DNA of 34,572 nucleotides from Myxococcales bacterium (GTDB lineage: Bacteria > Myxococcota_A > Polyangia > Polyangiales > Polyangiaceae): the NCBI GenBank assembly GCA_012514535.1, contig JAAZAA010000061.1, forward strand, positions 1 through 34,572, read 5' to 3'. How positions within the stretch are numbered: position 1 is the stretch's first letter; every line of letters starts with the position of its first letter. Below are positions 13,586 through 21,195 of the stretch, piece after piece. The notes under the pieces are model-generated. The model was not told the origin of the DNA, made no database searches, and saw nothing but the letters and a program-made list of their open reading frames with translations. Made by a program: the position numbers and the translations under genes.

Positions 13586-14968
13586 ATGACATACGTTTCA
13601 GAGCTCGATGGGTCGGGCGACCGCTTCTTGTCGCGGTGCTTGCAGCAGATCTTGGGTGAGTCGTGGGTAACCCCTGCGGACTTCGTGGCCAGCTTTGGAC
13701 CCTCCGACATCATGGAGTCCCTCGAGGGCGCTACCGAGCTGCGCGCGCGCATCCTGATCGAGGCAGCTGGAGTCCACGAGAAGATCGCGCCGAAGAAGTC
13801 CACGCAGGCCGCCGCGGAGGATCTGCAGATTTCTTTGGACGAAGGGATCTGCGATCCGCCCCGTCTGCTCGAGCTATTCAGCGCCGACGACCGCGTGCGT
13901 TATCTCGAGCGTCAGCGACTGTGGGACTTCGTGACGCGGGACGAGTTCTGGAAGAAGCCCTCCGAGAAGGCACGCGCACGCATGGTGTTCGTGCTCGCGA
14001 CGGCCTTGGAGGAGAAGCTCATCGACCTCGGTGACCTCATCGACGGGGTCGGCAGCGAGCGGCTCGCGAAGGATCTGCCGAAGGGGCTCCTGGAGCAGGT
14101 GCTCGTGCGGGCGGTGAGTGACGGGCGTGCTGGCAAGCCGTTCGATCCCGCGGGGCTCTTCGAGGTGGTCCAGTTGCCCGATTGGGTCGCCCACGTGTCC
14201 CTCGAGCACCTCTGGGCGAATGTCGTGCAGAGCCGGATCGAGCCCGCCGCCGGGTTCGACGACGACGGGATCGCGTTGGTCAGTGACACCGACATCGCCC
14301 CCGTGGACGGTGACGAGCCTCCCCCGGCCGGACCTCCTCCGAGCAAGGGGAAGGGCGGGAAGGGCTCTTCCGGGAAGAAGGGGGGCAACCCGCCCGCGTC
14401 GGGCCCCGCCGCCAAGGCCGCGCCCGGCGCCGGCGATGGCGCAGCGTCCGCTGATGGGGAGCGGGACGCGGCGGAGCTGGCCGCGCGCCAGCGGGCGGTG
14501 GACACCTTGGCCAAGATCGGCCGGCTGCCCCCGCGGCACGAGGCCCTCGACACCGCGACGCTGCTGGCCATCGACAGCCTGTACGTCGATCTGGCGCCGC
14601 TCACGACGGATGAAGCGCGGGAGGAGTGCATCCGCGAGGCCTTCCCCAATGACGCGATGCTTCGCGGCGCGCTCCTGGCCTTGGCAGAGGTGCTCGACCC
14701 GAACATCGACATCGCCGCCCTGGAGAAAGACGCGGACGCGGACTCCTTGATCAAGCTCGTGCTCTTCGAAGAGCGCCGGAAGGCCGACCGCAGCCGTCGC
14801 TCCCTGACGCCGCCTCCGCCCGCGGGCGCTCCGCCGGCATCGGGTCGAGCCTCCTCGGCTCCGCCCCCTCTGCCTCCGCTCCCGCCGCCGCCCTCGGGCC
14901 AGCGGCCCAGCTCTCCTCCACCGCCCGCGCTCCCCGAGGCGGCGGGAGGCCCCCCGGGGCGCCGCTGA
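13586..14968 (+). CDS. Unrecognised two-domain protein with Pro-rich tail
   Basis: 460-aa predicted cytoplasmic protein that I do not recognise. The N-terminal half (~1-230) is acidic and largely helical, with repeated short leucine-rich helices (LLELFSADDRVRYLERQRLW, LGDLIDGVGSERLAKDLPKG). A Lys/Gly/Pro/Ala-rich linker (~245-290) follows. A second helical domain (~295-405; RQRAVDTLAKIGRLPPRHEA, FPNDAMLRGALLALAEVL) ends in a Pro/Ser-rich tail. No signal peptide, membrane segment or catalytic motif is visible. A GGAGGATAGGA ribosome binding site precedes the ATG. It is monocistronic, with a terminator just after it. A scaffolding or regulatory role is only a guess. Confidence 0.8.
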   Translation: MTYVSELDGSGDRFLSRCLQQILGESWVTPADFVASFGPSDIMESLEGATELRARILIEAAGVHEKIAPKKSTQAAAEDLQISLDEGICDPPRLLELFSADDRVRYLERQRLWDFVTRDEFWKKPSEKARARMVFVLATALEEKLIDLGDLIDGVGSERLAKDLPKGLLEQVLVRAVSDGRAGKPFDPAGLFEVVQLPDWVAHVSLEHLWANVVQSRIEPAAGFDDDGIALVSDTDIAPVDGDEPPPAGPPPSKGKGGKGSSGKKGGNPPASGPAAKAAPGAGDGAASADGERDAAELAARQRAVDTLAKIGRLPPRHEALDTATLLAIDSLYVDLAPLTTDEAREECIREAFPNDAMLRGALLALAEVLDPNIDIAALEKDADADSLIKLVLFEERRKADRSRRSLTPPPPAGAPPASGRASSAPPPLPPLPPPPSGQRPSSPPPPALPEAAGGPPGRR

Positions 14969-14999
14969 GAGGCGGAAGAGCCACCGAGGCTCGAGGCGC

Positions 15000-15026
15000 G
15001 GCCCGGTCTCCGTGAGGAGCCGGGCC
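15000..15026 (+). terminator. Intrinsic-type terminator after the 460-aa gene
   Basis: GGCCCGG-T-CTCC pairs with GGAG-CCGGGCC around a GTGA loop, giving an 11-bp GC-rich stem with one bulge. The following bases, GCTCTGTTTCG, contain only a short T-run. The position 32 bases after the stop codon, before the isc promoter, fits a terminator. Confidence 0.65.
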
Positions 15027-15075
15027 GCTCTGTTTCGAGTGGCCGGAAAAGCGCGCGCTGGCCCGTCGAGAGCCT

Positions 15076-15104
15076 TTGACACGGAGGAGCGGGGGAGCTA
15101 AACC
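15076..15104 (+). promoter_or_regulatory. Probable promoter of the MerR-isc operon
   Basis: A consensus -35 TTGACA (15076-15081) is followed after 17 bases by TAAACC (15099-15104), a modest -10. Transcription would start near 15111, giving a ~70-base leader. The 17-base spacing is normal rather than the 19-20 typical of MerR-activated promoters, so repression or another mode of control is possible. Confidence 0.55.
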
Positions 15105-15116
15105 CTACCTGCACAC

Positions 15117-15158
15117 ACCCTAACGCGTACGTAAGGGTGCTGACCCGTACGGAAGAGT
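15117..15158 (+). promoter_or_regulatory. Candidate operator: inverted and phased direct repeats
   Basis: 15117-15138 is an imperfect palindrome of the form ACCCT-N-ACG-N4-CGT-N-AGGGT. Its right half, CGTACGTAAGGGT (15126-15138), recurs as CGTACGGAAGAGT at 15146-15158, exactly 20 bases (about two helical turns) further on. The repeats lie between the probable transcription start and the MerR start codon, where a bound regulator would block transcription. Confidence 0.5.
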
Positions 15159-15180
15159 TCTCCGAAGCGTCTCGACCCCC

Positions 15181-15753
15181 ATGTCCAAGCCGCAGCCCCG
15201 CCGCCTCGCCGTCTTCGACGAGCTCGCGTCCCCTCCGGGGAACGCCGGGAGCGCGCCCGTCGACGGGGACGCGAACTCACCGGGGCAGCTGCTCCAGGTG
15301 GGGGACCTCGCCAAGCTGACGGGCAAGACGGTGCGGGCGATCCACCTCTACGAGGAGCTCGGGCTGCTGCGCCCGGCGGATCGTTCGAAGGGGCGCTTCC
15401 GGCTGTTCAACCGCGAAGGCCTGCAGCGCGTGCGCTGGATCACCAAGCTCCAGCGGTTGGGGTTGTCCCTGACGGAGATCCAGAAGCTCGCCCGCGAGCT
15501 CGAGCAGGCGGAGTCGGCGCGCGGCGCGGCGCACCGTCTGCGGGAGGTCTACCTGGAGAAGCTGGCCGAGGTGCAGCAGAAGCTCCGGGAGATGCACCGC
15601 CTGGAACGCGAGCTGATCGCCAGCCTCACCTATCTCGAGACCTGTCAGAGCGCCTGCGAGACCGCCGTCTCGGTGGACTCGTGTCCACAATGTGAACGTC
15701 ACCCCGATCAACCTACTCCGCCGGAGCTCGTGATCGGCATGCACGCCCAATGA
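15181..15753 (+). CDS. MerR-family regulator with four-Cys C-terminus, first gene of isc operon
   Basis: 190-aa DNA-binding regulator. After a variable ~36-residue N-terminus comes a MerR winged helix (~38-105; LLQVGDLAKLTGKTVRAIHL, RPADRSKGRFRLFNREGLQR), then a long dimerisation coiled coil (~106-150). A Cys cluster follows: Cys155, Cys159, Cys168 and Cys171 (C-x3-C-x8-C-x2-C). MerR relatives use C-terminal Cys to bind metals (CueR, ZntR) or a [2Fe-2S] cluster (SoxR). The gene sits 48 bases before iscS, where many bacteria carry the Fe-S sensor IscR, so it is a good candidate regulator of iron-sulfur assembly. The bound ligand is inference; zinc is an alternative. Confidence 0.88.
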   Translation: MSKPQPRRLAVFDELASPPGNAGSAPVDGDANSPGQLLQVGDLAKLTGKTVRAIHLYEELGLLRPADRSKGRFRLFNREGLQRVRWITKLQRLGLSLTEIQKLARELEQAESARGAAHRLREVYLEKLAEVQQKLREMHRLERELIASLTYLETCQSACETAVSVDSCPQCERHPDQPTPPELVIGMHAQ

Positions 15754-15801
15754 AGCAAGCCCCGTGAGGTAGAGCCTCCACCCGGCCGGAAGATCCCCAC
15801 C

Positions 15802-17025
15802 ATGAGCCTCAAACTCCCCATCTACATGGACTACCACGCCACGACCCCGCTCGACCCGCGGGTGCTCGAGGCGATGTTGCCGTATTTCACCGAGACCTTC
15901 GGCAACGCAGCGAGCCGCACCCATCGCTTCGGGTGGACGGCCGAGGCGGCCGTGGAGGACGCCCGCGAGACGATCGCCCAGTTCATCGGCGCCGACTCCG
16001 GCAAGGAGATCGTGTTCACCTCTGGAGCCACCGAGAGCGACAACCTCGCGATCAAGGGCGTCGCCGAGTACTACAAGAGCCGCGGCAATCACATCATCAC
16101 CACCGTGATCGAGCACAAGGCCGTGCTCGACTCCTGCAAGCGCCTCGAGAAGGAGGGCTTCGAGGTCACCTATCTGCCGGTCGACTCGACGGGCATGGTG
16201 GATCCGGAGGCGGTGCGCGCGGCCATCACGGACAAGACCCTGCTCGTCAGCGTCATGCTGGCCAACAACGAGGTGGGGACGATCCAGCCGATCCGCGAGA
16301 TCGGGGCGATCACGCGGGAGAAGAAGGTGCTCTTCCACTGCGACGCCGTGCAGGGGCTCGGCAAGACGCCCTTCGACGTGAAGGAGATGAACGTCGACCT
16401 GGCCTCGCTCACCGCCCACAAGCTGTACGGACCCAAGGGCGTGGGCGCGCTGTACATCCGACGCAGCAAGCCCCGGGTGCGCCTGGTGGCCCAGATGGAC
16501 GGAGGCGGCCACGAGCGCGGCAACCGCTCCGGAACCCTGAACGTCCCGAGCATCGTCGGCTTCGCGAAGGCGTGCCGCATCATGCAGGAAGAAGGCGAGG
16601 AGGAGGCGCGACGGATCCAGGCGCTGCGGGATCGGCTGCACGATCGCATCCGCGCCCGGCTCGATCTGGTGACGCTCAACGGTCACCCTGAGCGACGTCT
16701 CGCCGGAAACCTGAACCTCTCCTTCTCCTTCGTGGAGGGAGAGGGGCTCATGATGGCCATCAAGGACGTCGCCGTGTCCAGCGGCTCCGCCTGCACCAGC
16801 GCCAGCCTGGAGCCGAGTTACGTGCTCCGCGCCATGGGCCTCGACGAGGAGCTGGCCCACTCGTCGATCCGCTTCGGGCTCGGTCGGTTTACGACGGAGG
16901 CCGAGGTGGACTACGTCGCCGACCTCGTCGTGGAGAAGGTGAATCGGCTGCGGGACATGTCGCCGTTGTACGAGATGTTCAAGGAAGGGGTGGATCTCAA
17001 GTCGATCCAGTGGACCCCCCACTGA
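15802..17025 (+). CDS. iscS: Cysteine desulfurase IscS
   Basis: 407-aa PLP enzyme that removes sulfur from L-cysteine and hands it to IscU for iron-sulfur cluster building. Visible features: N-terminal [16 protein letters not shown], the cofactor Lys207 in [11 protein letters not shown], the mobile-loop catalytic Cys331 in [19 protein letters not shown] (long loop typical of group I IscS/NifS), and a C-terminus ending IQWTPH, like the IscU-docking tail of E. coli IscS. Length is normal for the family. It follows the MerR gene by 48 bases and precedes iscU by about 100 bases. Confidence 0.97.
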
Positions 17026-17123: not shown

Positions 17124-17558
17124 ATGTCCTACAGCAACAAGGTCATCGAGCACTACGAAAACCCCCGCAACGTGGGCACCCTCGACAAGGAGGATCCCCA
17201 GGTCGGAACGGGGCTCGTGGGCGCGCCGGCCTGCGGAGACGTCATGCGGCTCCAGATCAAGGTCAACGATGATGGCGTGATCGAAGATGCGCGCTTCAAG
17301 ACCTTCGGCTGTGGTTCCGCGATCGCGTCGTCGTCGCTGGCCACGGAGTGGATCAAGGGCAAGACCGTGGCCGAGGCGGAGGCCTTGAAGAACAGCCAGA
17401 TCGCCGAGGAGCTCAGCTTGCCCCCGGTGAAGATCCATTGCTCCGTGCTCGCGGAGGACGCGATCAAGAGCGCCATCGAGGATTATCGCCAGAAGAAGGC
17501 GGCGCGCGCGGCGCTCGAGGGCACCGCGCCCACCGCGCTCGAAGGAACCGATTCGTGA
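17124..17558 (+). CDS. iscU: Iron-sulfur cluster scaffold protein IscU
   Basis: 144-aa scaffold on which [2Fe-2S] clusters are assembled from IscS-derived sulfur. The three ligand Cys are present at 37 (GAPACGDVM), 63 (FGCGSAIASS) and 106 (KIHCSVLAEDA), as is Asp39. The LPPVK motif (residues 99-103) is the recognition site for the HscA chaperone encoded downstream. A C-terminal extension (~125-144) repeats ALEGT. The ATG at 17124 starts the conserved MSYSNKVIEHYENPRN; an upstream in-frame extension lacks similarity. Its stop overlaps the GTG start of iscA. Confidence 0.97.
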   Translation: MSYSNKVIEHYENPRNVGTLDKEDPQVGTGLVGAPACGDVMRLQIKVNDDGVIEDARFKTFGCGSAIASSSLATEWIKGKTVAEAEALKNSQIAEELSLPPVKIHCSVLAEDAIKSAIEDYRQKKAARAALEGTAPTALEGTDS

Positions 17559-17953
17559 ACACCGAAGTCGTCCCCAACACGCCCGATCCGTTCGCCGAGG
17601 CGCGCCAGCGTGCTCCGGAGAAGGGGATTACCATCACGGAGGCAGCGGCTCGGCACGCGCGGGACAAGCTCGCTCAGCGCGGGACCCCCGACGCGGCCAT
17701 CCGCCTCGGGATCAAGGGGGGCGGCTGCTCGGGGTTCAGCTACGTGGTCCAGTTCGAGGACGATCCGCCTCGCTCACGAGACTATCTGTACGAAGTCGAC
17801 GGTGTGCGGTTCCTCATCGACAAGAAGAGCTTCGTGTACTTGGTGGGGACCACCTTCGACTACGAGAAGACCTTGATGTTTCAGGGCTTCAAGTTCCGCA
17901 ACCCCCAGGAGGCGCAGAGCTGTGGCTGCGGTCACTCCTTCACGGTCCGCTGA
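17555..17953 (+). CDS. iscA: A-type iron-sulfur carrier protein IscA
   Basis: 132-aa HesB/IscA family protein that accepts clusters or iron and delivers them to client proteins. The three conserved Cys are at 58 (GGGCSGFSY) and in CGCG at 123 and 125. Other family marks are LGIKGGGCSGFSYVVQFEDD and LIDKKSFVYLVGTTFDYEK. The first ~20 residues are an unconserved extension. The GTG start at 17555 overlaps the iscU stop (GTGA), which shows translational coupling. Confidence 0.95.
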   Translation: MNTEVVPNTPDPFAEARQRAPEKGITITEAAARHARDKLAQRGTPDAAIRLGIKGGGCSGFSYVVQFEDDPPRSRDYLYEVDGVRFLIDKKSFVYLVGTTFDYEKTLMFQGFKFRNPQEAQSCGCGHSFTVR

Positions 17954-18542
17954 GGGGAGCGGGACGCCACCCCTCGACCGGGGGAGCCGCTCCGAGGCGC
18001 GGCGCTCCGCGGGCGGCGGAGATCCGTTCGATCTCTTCCAGATCCCGCCGGCCTTCGAGCTCGATCTCGAGGAGCTGGGGCGGCGGCATCGGGAGCTCAG
18101 TCGGGCGCTGCACCCGGACCGCTACGTGGGGCGCCCCGCGGCGGAGCGGCGCGAGGCGCTGGGCCGGGCCATCGAGGTGAACGAGGCCTGGCGGGTGCTG
18201 CGGGATCCGGCGCGGCGCGCGGAGGTGTTGCTCCAGCGCCTCGGGGTCCCGACGGGCGAGGAGTCGAACCCGCCGGCGCGCCCCGAGTTCTTGATGGAGA
18301 TGATGGAGCGCCGCGAGAGCCTGCGCGCGCTCGGGCGCGCCGGAGATCTGGCGGGCGTCGAGGCGTTGAGCGAGGAGGTGCGGGGCCAGGAGCGCGAGCT
18401 CCTGAGGGAGCTCGGAGAGGGGTTCCGCCGCGCCCTCGAGACACCGGAGGCGCCGGTCCCGGCGACGCTCTCCCTCCGCCTCGGTGAGCTGCGCTACCTG
18501 CGCCGCTTCTTCGACGAGGCGGACGCCTTCTTGAGCGACTAG
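17922..18542 (+). CDS. hscB: J-domain co-chaperone HscB
   Basis: 206-aa co-chaperone that delivers IscU to HscA and stimulates its ATPase. An N-terminal J-domain (~34-105) carries the essential HPD at 64-66 (ALHPDRYVG) and the NEAWRVLRDPARRAE segment. The C-terminal three-helix HSCB domain (~120-205; FLMEMMERRESLRAL and LRYLRRFFDEADAFL) should bind IscU. The only in-frame start before the J-domain is the GTG at 17922, preceded by GGAGG, so the gene overlaps iscA by 32 bases. The first ~33 residues are unconserved. Confidence 0.93.
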   Translation: MAAVTPSRSAEGSGTPPLDRGSRSEARRSAGGGDPFDLFQIPPAFELDLEELGRRHRELSRALHPDRYVGRPAAERREALGRAIEVNEAWRVLRDPARRAEVLLQRLGVPTGEESNPPARPEFLMEMMERRESLRALGRAGDLAGVEALSEEVRGQERELLRELGEGFRRALETPEAPVPATLSLRLGELRYLRRFFDEADAFLSD

Positions 18543-18713: not shown

Positions 18714-20678
18714 ATGACACTCTTCGACATTTTCGACCCGAAGGCGCCCCCGAAACCCATCGGGATCGATCTCGGAACCACGCATTCCATCGTGGCGAGC
18801 CTGCGCGATGGCCGCCCCTACGCGCTCACGACCTGCGACGGGACGGGCCTCTTGCCCAGCGTGGTGTACTACGGGCGCGGCGGGAACGTCGTCGTCGGTG
18901 AGGTGGCCAAGGCCCACGCCCTGCGGGAACCCGAGTCCACCATCGTGAGCGTCAAGCGCTTCATGGGGCGCGGAGCGGACGACCCGCAGACGCGCGCCCT
19001 GGGCGCGTACAAGTTCGTGGAGCCGCGCACCGAGGAGGAGGCGCGCACCGTGCGCTTCGACGTGGGGGACCGCGTCGTCACCCCGGTGGAGGTGAGCGCG
19101 GAGATCCTCCGGAGCCTCAAACAGAGCGCTGTGGATCAGCTGACCAACGTCGGGGGCGCGGTCATCACGGTTCCCGCCTACTTCGACGACGCGCAACGCC
19201 AGGCCACCCGAGACGCGGGGCGGCTCGCGGGGCTCGAGGTGCTGCGCCTGTTGAACGAACCGACGGCGGCAGCGCTGGCCTACGGGCTCGACAAGAGGCG
19301 CAACGGGGTCTTCGTCGTGTTCGATCTGGGAGGAGGGACCTTCGACGTGACGATCCTCCTCCTCGACGACGGCGTGTTCCAGGTGAAGAGCACGGGCGGG
19401 GACAGCGCGCTCGGCGGTGACGACATCGACCGGCTGATCGCCGAGCGGATGCTCCCCGTCATGGGCTTCGGTGCCGACGAGTCCGTGAGCCCGGAGATCG
19501 TGAACCTCGTGCTCGACGCCGCTCGCCAGGCCAAGCACGCGCTCACCGATCGGACGGAGGTCGAGGTCCAGCTGCCGGCCCGCGGCGGAGATCAACGGGT
19601 GTTCCGCCTGAGCCGCGCGGAGCTGGACGAGTGGATGCAGCCGCTCATGGAGCGCGCGGGGCGGGTCTGCCGACGGGCCCTCCGGGACGCGGGGGTCGGG
19701 CCGGGGGAGGTCGACGGCGTCATTCTCGTCGGGGGCTCGACCCGGGTCCCTCGGGTCCGGAGTTACGTGGCCGAGCTCTTCGGTCGCGAGGCGCTCGGGG
19801 ACATCGATCCGGAGCGGGTCGTGGCCTACGGCGCGGCGATCCAGGCGGAGCTGTTGTCCAAGGAGAGCGACGAGGTGTTGCTCCTCGACGTCCTGCCCCT
19901 CTCCCTCGGCATCGAGACGATGGGCGGAGGCGTGGACAAGATCCTGCCGCGCAACACGACGATCCCCGCGGGGGCGAAGAGCACCTTCACGACCTACGCG
20001 GACAACCAGACGGGCTTCGAGATCCACGTGGTGCAGGGGGAGCGGGAGCTGGCACAGGACTGCCGTTCGCTGGCGAAGTTCTCCCTGCGAGGCATTCCGC
20101 CCATGCCCGCGGGGTTGGCGCGCCTGGAGGTGGAGTTCCACGTCGACGAGAACAACCTTCTGCACGTGACGGCGCGCGAGCTCACGACGGGCAAGGTGCA
20201 GAGCGTCGAGGTCAAGCCGAGCTATGGGCTCAGCGACGACGAGATCGAGGACATGCTGATCGACGCGCTGGAGCACGGCGAGGAGGACCTCGAGGCGCGC
20301 CGGCTGGCGGACGCGCGGGTGGAGGCGGAGCGCGTGCTCTTGGCGACCACGAAATCCCTGGAGGTCGATGCGGACCTGCTCGACGCGGACGAACGCCGCA
20401 ACGTCGACGCCGCCATGGACGCCCTGCGGCGCGCGCTCGGTCAGGGCCCGGAGGGGGCGAGCGGCGCCGCGCGGAAGGCGTCCGTGGTGCAGGCGCGCCT
20501 CGACGCCCTCGACGATGCGACGCACGCCTGGGCCGGGCGCCGCATGGATCGGGCCATCCAGCGGGCGCTGGCCGGCAAGGGCGTCGGCGACGTCGCCGAC
20601 GAGGTGTCCGGGGCCGCCGGGGTGGACGCGCACGTGGCGGCGCATCGCCGCGCGAAAGACCAGGGTGCACGTTCCTGA
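18714..20678 (+). CDS. hscA: Hsp70-type iron-sulfur chaperone HscA
   Basis: 654-aa specialised Hsp70 that releases clusters from IscU to acceptor proteins. The nucleotide-binding domain has IGIDLGTTHSIVASL, VFDLGGGTFDVTIL and VILVGGSTRVPRV. The short interdomain linker region (EVLLLDVLPLSLGIETMGGG) and substrate-binding domain (FTTYADNQTGFEIHVVQGE) follow, with a helical lid at ~510-640. It is slightly longer than E. coli HscA because of its C-terminal tail, which lacks a DnaK-type EEVD end. A 171-base gap separates it from hscB, and no clear internal promoter was seen there. Confidence 0.95.
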   Translation: MTLFDIFDPKAPPKPIGIDLGTTHSIVASLRDGRPYALTTCDGTGLLPSVVYYGRGGNVVVGEVAKAHALREPESTIVSVKRFMGRGADDPQTRALGAYKFVEPRTEEEARTVRFDVGDRVVTPVEVSAEILRSLKQSAVDQLTNVGGAVITVPAYFDDAQRQATRDAGRLAGLEVLRLLNEPTAAALAYGLDKRRNGVFVVFDLGGGTFDVTILLLDDGVFQVKSTGGDSALGGDDIDRLIAERMLPVMGFGADESVSPEIVNLVLDAARQAKHALTDRTEVEVQLPARGGDQRVFRLSRAELDEWMQPLMERAGRVCRRALRDAGVGPGEVDGVILVGGSTRVPRVRSYVAELFGREALGDIDPERVVAYGAAIQAELLSKESDEVLLLDVLPLSLGIETMGGGVDKILPRNTTIPAGAKSTFTTYADNQTGFEIHVVQGERELAQDCRSLAKFSLRGIPPMPAGLARLEVEFHVDENNLLHVTARELTTGKVQSVEVKPSYGLSDDEIEDMLIDALEHGEEDLEARRLADARVEAERVLLATTKSLEVDADLLDADERRNVDAAMDALRRALGQGPEGASGAARKASVVQARLDALDDATHAWAGRRMDRAIQRALAGKGVGDVADEVSGAAGVDAHVAAHRRAKDQGARS

Positions 20679-20847: not shown

Positions 20848-21195
20848 ATGGCGAAGGTCGTTTTCCTCGAGCAGAACCTCGAAGTCGATGTCCCGGTGGG
20901 ATCGAGCATCCTCGAGGCGTCGAAGAAGGTGGGCGCCCCGGAAGGGGACGCTTGCGGCGGAGTGTGCGCCTGCTCGACGTGCCACGTGTACGTGGAGGAA
21001 GGCGAAGAGCTCCTCCGCGAGGCAGAAGAGGACGAGGAGGACATCCTCGACAAGGCCTTCGACGTGCGCATGAACTCTCGCCTGGGTTGCCAGGCGCGCA
21101 TCGAGGCGGAGGGGACCATCGTGGTGCGGATCTCCGAGGAGAGCCTCGACGCCTATTACAACGAGCACCCCGACGTCCCGCGACCCGAGAAGTAA
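20848..21195 (+). CDS. fdx: ISC-type [2Fe-2S] ferredoxin
   Basis: 115-aa adrenodoxin-type ferredoxin that supplies electrons during iron-sulfur cluster assembly. The cluster ligands are Cys36, Cys42, Cys45 (C-x5-C-x2-C in ACGGVCACSTCHVYV) and Cys81 (SRLGCQARI). An extra Cys40 sits inside the first loop, also common in ISC ferredoxins. The acidic stretch EEDEEDILDKAFDV is the usual partner-binding helix. Last gene of the isc operon; no IscX gene follows. Confidence 0.95.
   Translation: MAKVVFLEQNLEVDVPVGSSILEASKKVGAPEGDACGGVCACSTCHVYVEEGEELLREAEEDEEDILDKAFDVRMNSRLGCQARIEAEGTIVVRISEESLDAYYNEHPDVPRPEK

Follow-up and report, generated by a model that had tools for sequence, protein, structure and literature searches.

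The isc operon in a 34,572-nucleotide stretch of the genome of a Myxococcales bacterium (hereafter the window) begins with a gene for a MerR-type protein that is very probably an autogenous repressor of Fe-S assembly, a reading that follows from its linkage to the operon, its operator and the geometry of the predicted promoter. The supply of Fe-S clusters must match demand, and the known feedback regulators of their assembly are Rrf2 or SufR proteins. On the evidence of comparative genomics, the MerR protein is linked to the operon and carries a site of four cysteines. The predicted operator and the repressor geometry rest on conservation, while an Fe-S cluster as the ligand, and the form that would bind DNA, are what we infer from IscR, RisR and SufR.

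The MerR protein and the isc operon

The merR gene (15181..15753, forward strand) encodes a protein of 190 amino acids, with a DNA-binding part at about residues 38-108, a long helix at 113-158 and a C-terminal segment with four cysteines arranged as C155-x3-C159-x8-C168-x2-C171, whose codons lie at 15643..15693 (forward strand; translation and orthologue comparison). The product scores above the Pfam cut-offs for MerR_1 (E 3e-14), MerR-DNA-bind (E 2.8e-9) and MerR, and the same search gave no match to the Rrf2 domain (PF02082). It has the winged-helix DNA-binding domain and the dimerisation helix of the MerR superfamily. The AlphaFold model (pLDDT 87.8) likewise has a helix at 113-158 and shows the four cysteines where the dimerisation helix ends; its best matches in a Foldseek search are MerR-family proteins.

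iscS, encoding a cysteine desulfurase (15802..17025; TIGR02006, 651 bits), starts 48 bp past merR in the same direction. It is followed, all on the forward strand, by iscU for the scaffold (17124..17558; TIGR01999, 231 bits), iscA for an A-type carrier (17558..17953, start codon uncertain; TIGR00049, 105.8 bits), hscB for a co-chaperone (17922..18542, start codon uncertain; TIGR00714, 63.1 bits), hscA for an Hsp70-type chaperone (18714..20678; TIGR01991, 772 bits) and fdx for a [2Fe-2S] ferredoxin (20848..21195; NCBIfam/Pfam search). iscS, iscU, hscB and hscA pass the NCBIfam equivalog cut-offs. Translation, Pfam and NCBIfam thus confirm the preliminary description of a MerR protein with this cysteine pattern as the first gene of the operon. 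That description had also reported an Rrf2-family IscR to be missing from the window, and none is seen there. The genome to which the window belongs is 5.77 Mb in size and 98.8% complete. A search of it found no SufB/D core, and ISC is therefore apparently its sole machinery of this kind.

Distribution in the Myxococcota

Fifty-nine relatives were sampled at the order level and 47 MerR loci were fetched from them, apart from three weaker matches (L052-L054) that were counted as paralogues. In all 47, the MerR orthologue immediately precedes iscS and has the same orientation. At the phylum level, 152 genomes were sampled and the DNA around iscS was fetched from 60. MerR precedes iscS in 30 additional genomes, an Rrf2 gene does so in 10 and neither is present before iscS in 7; the remaining loci encode NifS-like desulfurases that are not part of a full isc operon. 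Altogether, 77 of the Myxococcota genomes examined have a MerR orthologue directly before iscS, so the gene pair first seen in the window is not a local oddity. As for an iscR elsewhere among the relatives, the iscS-adjacent slot is taken by Rrf2 in those 10 genomes, which all belong to one family and all lack MerR: the MerR profile finds nothing in them at E<=1e-15. No iscS locus among those examined has MerR and Rrf2 together. MerR and Rrf2 therefore substitute for each other at one site.

The named relatives found among genome contigs belong for the most part to the Myxococcota or to Candidatus Eisenbacteria; two carry the label Proteobacteria, yet are placed with the Myxococcota in the tree. 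A fast tree of the orthologues fits mostly vertical descent within the Myxococcota and groups 12 of the 13 Eisenbacteria sequences together. In one genome (G135), a MerR orthologue lies away from isc and has a site resembling the operator (L239:1470-1970).

Candidatus Eisenbacteria and a second MerR family

The MerR protein is present in 27 of the 47 genomes from Candidatus Eisenbacteria, the phylum of locus L100. The gene order there is MerR, then an A-type carrier (sufA-like), sufC and sufB; A-type carrier or suf genes are neighbours of MerR in 26 of the 27 positive genomes, and iscS is its neighbour in the last one. Being linked to Fe-S assembly across two machineries, the MerR protein is most probably a regulator of that process. 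In one Eisenbacteria genome, MerR and the operator stand ahead of a gene for an RpoH/RpoD-like sigma factor, with no suf genes there (L117:3998-5517). Two Eisenbacteria loci encode a SufB protein with a long in-frame insertion resembling an intein (L108:5729-8221 and L114:5375-7804).

A second family of MerR paralogues occurs in the same phylum (L052, L053, L054, L240, L241 and L242), with a similar four-cysteine C-terminus and 28-34% identity. Neither isc nor suf was found next to these genes in the loci examined. Among the neighbours of the L054 paralogue are a protein resembling the GTP cyclohydrolase FolE and another that is LON-domain-like.

Predicted operator and promoter geometry

Just downstream of the predicted -10 element of the window lies a near-perfect palindrome, CACCCTAACGCGTACGTAAGGGTG (15116..15139, forward strand), which by its conservation and its uniqueness in the genome is the predicted MerR-family binding site. 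A possible extra half-site, ACGGAAGAGTT (15149..15159, forward strand), was read from the sequence as a direct repeat of the right half of the operator. The consensus AACYCTnACGnnnnCGTnAGRGTT is found ahead of nearly all MerR orthologues. With a consensus built from many of the very promoters later scored, 118 of 125 upstream regions match at least 14 of the 21 positions, a level reached by about 1% of shuffled regions; of the seven promoters below this score, four (L012, L016, L082 and L139) have clear sites beyond the stretch first examined. The site is present at 27 of 27 Eisenbacteria loci, and it is absent from the Rrf2-headed and the regulator-less isc loci that were checked.

A pattern search of the whole genome of the window returned the operator as the sole site at 0-1 mismatches and no further site within 2 mismatches. 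A wider regulon in this genome was considered and rejected: the three other sites found, all at 3 mismatches, are what the reversed-pattern control gives as well. When 59 genomes of the class were scanned with up to 2 mismatches allowed, a search partly out of sample as it includes genomes not used for the consensus, the site was found in 20, and every returned locus lies at a MerR-iscS pair; besides these, there was one weak extra match (G243, contig 43). The reversed pattern, used as the control, gave 4 matches in all.

The predicted merR-isc promoter consists of a -35 element TTGACA (15076..15081) and a -10 element TAAACC (15099..15104; a weak match to TATAAT), both on the forward strand and separated by 17 bp. 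In 102 of 118 orthologous promoters TTGAC is found inside the operator or in the 80 bp ahead of it, where about 4% would be expected per 80 nt from shuffling. Among these 102, the best spacer to a predicted -10 is 17 bp in 87, and across the orthologous promoters the centre of the operator lies a median of 19 bp past the predicted -10. Classical MerR activators bind between the -35 and -10 elements, inside a spacer of 19-20 bp. Activation by distortion of such a spacer is the mode of most characterised MerR proteins, SoxR included; as an account of isc control it has hardly any chance of being correct, given predicted elements with a 17-bp spacer and an operator that lies after or against the -10 and not between the two elements. 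With the operator at or after the -10, repression is therefore expected and not activation by spacer distortion. A MerR dimer on the palindrome would sit over or just past the predicted transcription start of merR-isc, placed some 7 bp beyond 15104 and immediately ahead of the operator, and a protein bound at 15116-15139 should block initiation by RNA polymerase.

Of the properties of Fe-S-sensing feedback regulators of Fe-S assembly as a functional class, the protein has linkage to isc or suf and a conserved site at its own promoter. The preliminary description had proposed an Fe-S-sensing MerR protein as an independent substitute for IscR, with SoxR as the model. The dedicated isc regulator, its position in the place of IscR and the independent solution are all well supported by comparative evidence; SoxR is a poor model. 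In favour of the dedicated role are the synteny found in two phyla, the occurrence beside ISC as well as SUF, the mutual exclusion of MerR and Rrf2 at the locus and a conserved operator found only at these loci.

Rrf2 proteins elsewhere in the genome

A genome-wide search found two Rrf2 genes, one on contig C165 (L001) and one on contig C193 (L002), that exceed the Pfam cut-off, and one further match below it; none of the matches is on the window's own contig (C316). The first gene encodes a Cys-rich Rrf2 protein with CLSKTAYQRCEGCRSEETC (L001:1447-1908) and lies near an FtsH-type protease; the second lies beside a cysteine synthase. Either of them, for example the Cys-rich L001 protein, might control isc in trans and leave MerR with another or a minor role, and there is a precedent in RisR, which acts on the isc operon of Myxococcus xanthus in trans (PMC9973013). 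Several observations speak against this. The core of the RisR site, GAC-N7-GTC, is absent from the isc promoter region (14901-15800), the conserved element of MerR-isc promoters is the palindrome that the Rrf2-headed isc loci checked lack, and the 3 kb inspected around each Rrf2 gene showed no gene for Fe-S assembly. A canonical IscR-type Rrf2 protein acting in trans on the isc promoter of the window is unlikely, and we see very little prospect that any Rrf2 protein encoded elsewhere takes the part here assigned to MerR.

The four cysteines

C155, C159, C168 and C171 are kept by every one of 58 aligned sequences (alignment A1), at a mean column identity of 34%, and the four-cysteine pattern is held in 125 of 127 distinct orthologues, a count that takes in one member of the paralogue group (L053). 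This conservation exceeds chance, and the concern raised earlier that the cysteines might not be conserved in orthologues does not apply. The spacing is C-x3-C-x8-C-x2-C in the window and C-x2/3-C...C-x2-C among the orthologues. One exception (L097) has four or more cysteines and a longer loop. The other (L168, 1937-2467) has lost one of the four and still holds both its place at isc and the operator, which counts against an Fe-S cluster as the ligand.

Also counting against an Fe-S cluster, the nearest solved relatives by sequence are the metal sensors MerR, PbrR, CadR and CueR, whose structures the profile matches best, and two close cysteine pairs suit zinc too. The protein might repress isc as proposed and hold zinc or another thiophilic metal at the four cysteines, which would then be a structural knob or would serve to sense an excess of metal harmful to Fe-S clusters. 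Its closest HMM families are ZntR (65.5 bits) and CueR (64.8 bits). However, the NCBIfam equivalog models for MerR, ZntR and CadR/PbrR give 58-66 bits against cut-offs of 143-168, so that the metal-sensor cut-offs are missed by at least 80 bits. MerR and PbrR take one ligand from the partner protomer, a cysteine located near where the dimerisation helix begins. The whole translation of the window protein has no cysteine upstream of C155, and this partner-protomer ligand is therefore missing; nor is there a cysteine near the start of the helix in the consensus of the 58-sequence alignment. A metal-resistance regulator was ruled out by the linked genes, which are isc or suf at nearly every locus. 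We regard zinc or a similar metal as an unlikely ligand.

Two close cysteine pairs at the end of a coiled coil could equally form disulfides under oxidative or sulfur stress and so release the operator with no metal involved, and induction of isc and suf by oxidants would make sense. All four cysteines are conserved as a set, however, which is beyond the need of a simple switch, and a thiol redox switch of this kind is rather improbable.

The parallel with RisR and IscR favours an Fe-S cluster, as does the position of the cysteine set where the dimerisation helix ends. On balance the protein is probably an autogenous, operon-specific repressor of Fe-S assembly whose four cysteines most likely carry a labile Fe-S cluster. 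The cluster-loaded dimer would be the form that binds DNA; when the Fe-S supply drops or the cluster is oxidised, the apo-protein would leave the operator and isc would be expressed.

Comparison with known regulators

The window protein belongs to a lineage that is distinct within the MerR family: its fold is MerR, and its cysteine pattern and profile scores set it apart from SoxR and from the known metal sensors. ZntR, CueR, CadR, PbrR and MerR are its nearest relatives by sequence and have ligand cysteines near the same end of the dimerisation helix. These sensors have fewer and differently spaced ligands, control metal-resistance targets and bind inside the promoter spacer. SoxR, a MerR-family protein with a [2Fe-2S] cluster, shares the MerR fold and four cysteines after the dimerisation helix, but its motif is CX2CXCX5C, as against CX2-3C...CX2C in the MerR-isc orthologues. 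Identity with SoxR was ruled out by this spacing and by a TIGR01950 score of 49.7 bits against a cut-off of 116.9. SoxR senses redox-active agents, activates through a stretched spacer and is linked to soxS, not to isc. It is a poor model for both the membership and the promoter geometry of the window protein.

A search of the literature, limited to open-licence papers, found no published description of this protein. We lean towards regarding the protein as a third family, after Rrf2 (IscR and RisR) and the ArsR-like SufR, to have been independently recruited as an Fe-S-sensing repressor. It would be old in the Myxococcota and common to Candidatus Eisenbacteria, serving ISC or SUF through one operator in two phyla, and its four cysteines would give the MerR family a new Fe-S site, coupled to repressor logic. 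If so, a third fold has been convergently recruited for Fe-S feedback in two phyla, and the control of ISC is explained in large groups of myxobacteria without IscR, of which the present genome has ISC as the only assembly system found. It would also provide a MerR repressor for comparison with SoxR on how a cluster affects DNA binding. With so exact a palindrome, the idea can be tested directly.

Among the regulators of Fe-S assembly, IscR of E. coli, an Rrf2 protein, likewise has its gene at the head of the isc operon, where merR stands in the window. It is a feedback repressor with a cysteine-held cluster, to which the putative cluster of the window protein would be the counterpart, but it differs in its unrelated family, its cysteine pattern and its operator. 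RisR of M. xanthus, also an Rrf2 protein, represses both isc and suf in its holo-form; it has three cluster cysteines, recognises the GAC-N7-GTC site and is encoded at suf, and the paper that describes it makes no mention of MerR (PMC9973013). RisR shares its phylum and its targets with the window protein, and differs in its Rrf2 fold, number of cluster cysteines, site and gene location. SufR of Synechocystis and Mycobacterium tuberculosis, with an ArsR-like HTH, is cited in the same paper as a non-Rrf2, Fe-S-binding regulator of an Fe-S assembly system (PMC9973013). SufR and the window protein are both non-Rrf2 regulators at Fe-S assembly genes, with different DNA-binding families and cysteine arrangements. 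The best reading by analogy is that the window protein works like IscR, RisR and SufR, outside the families of all three.
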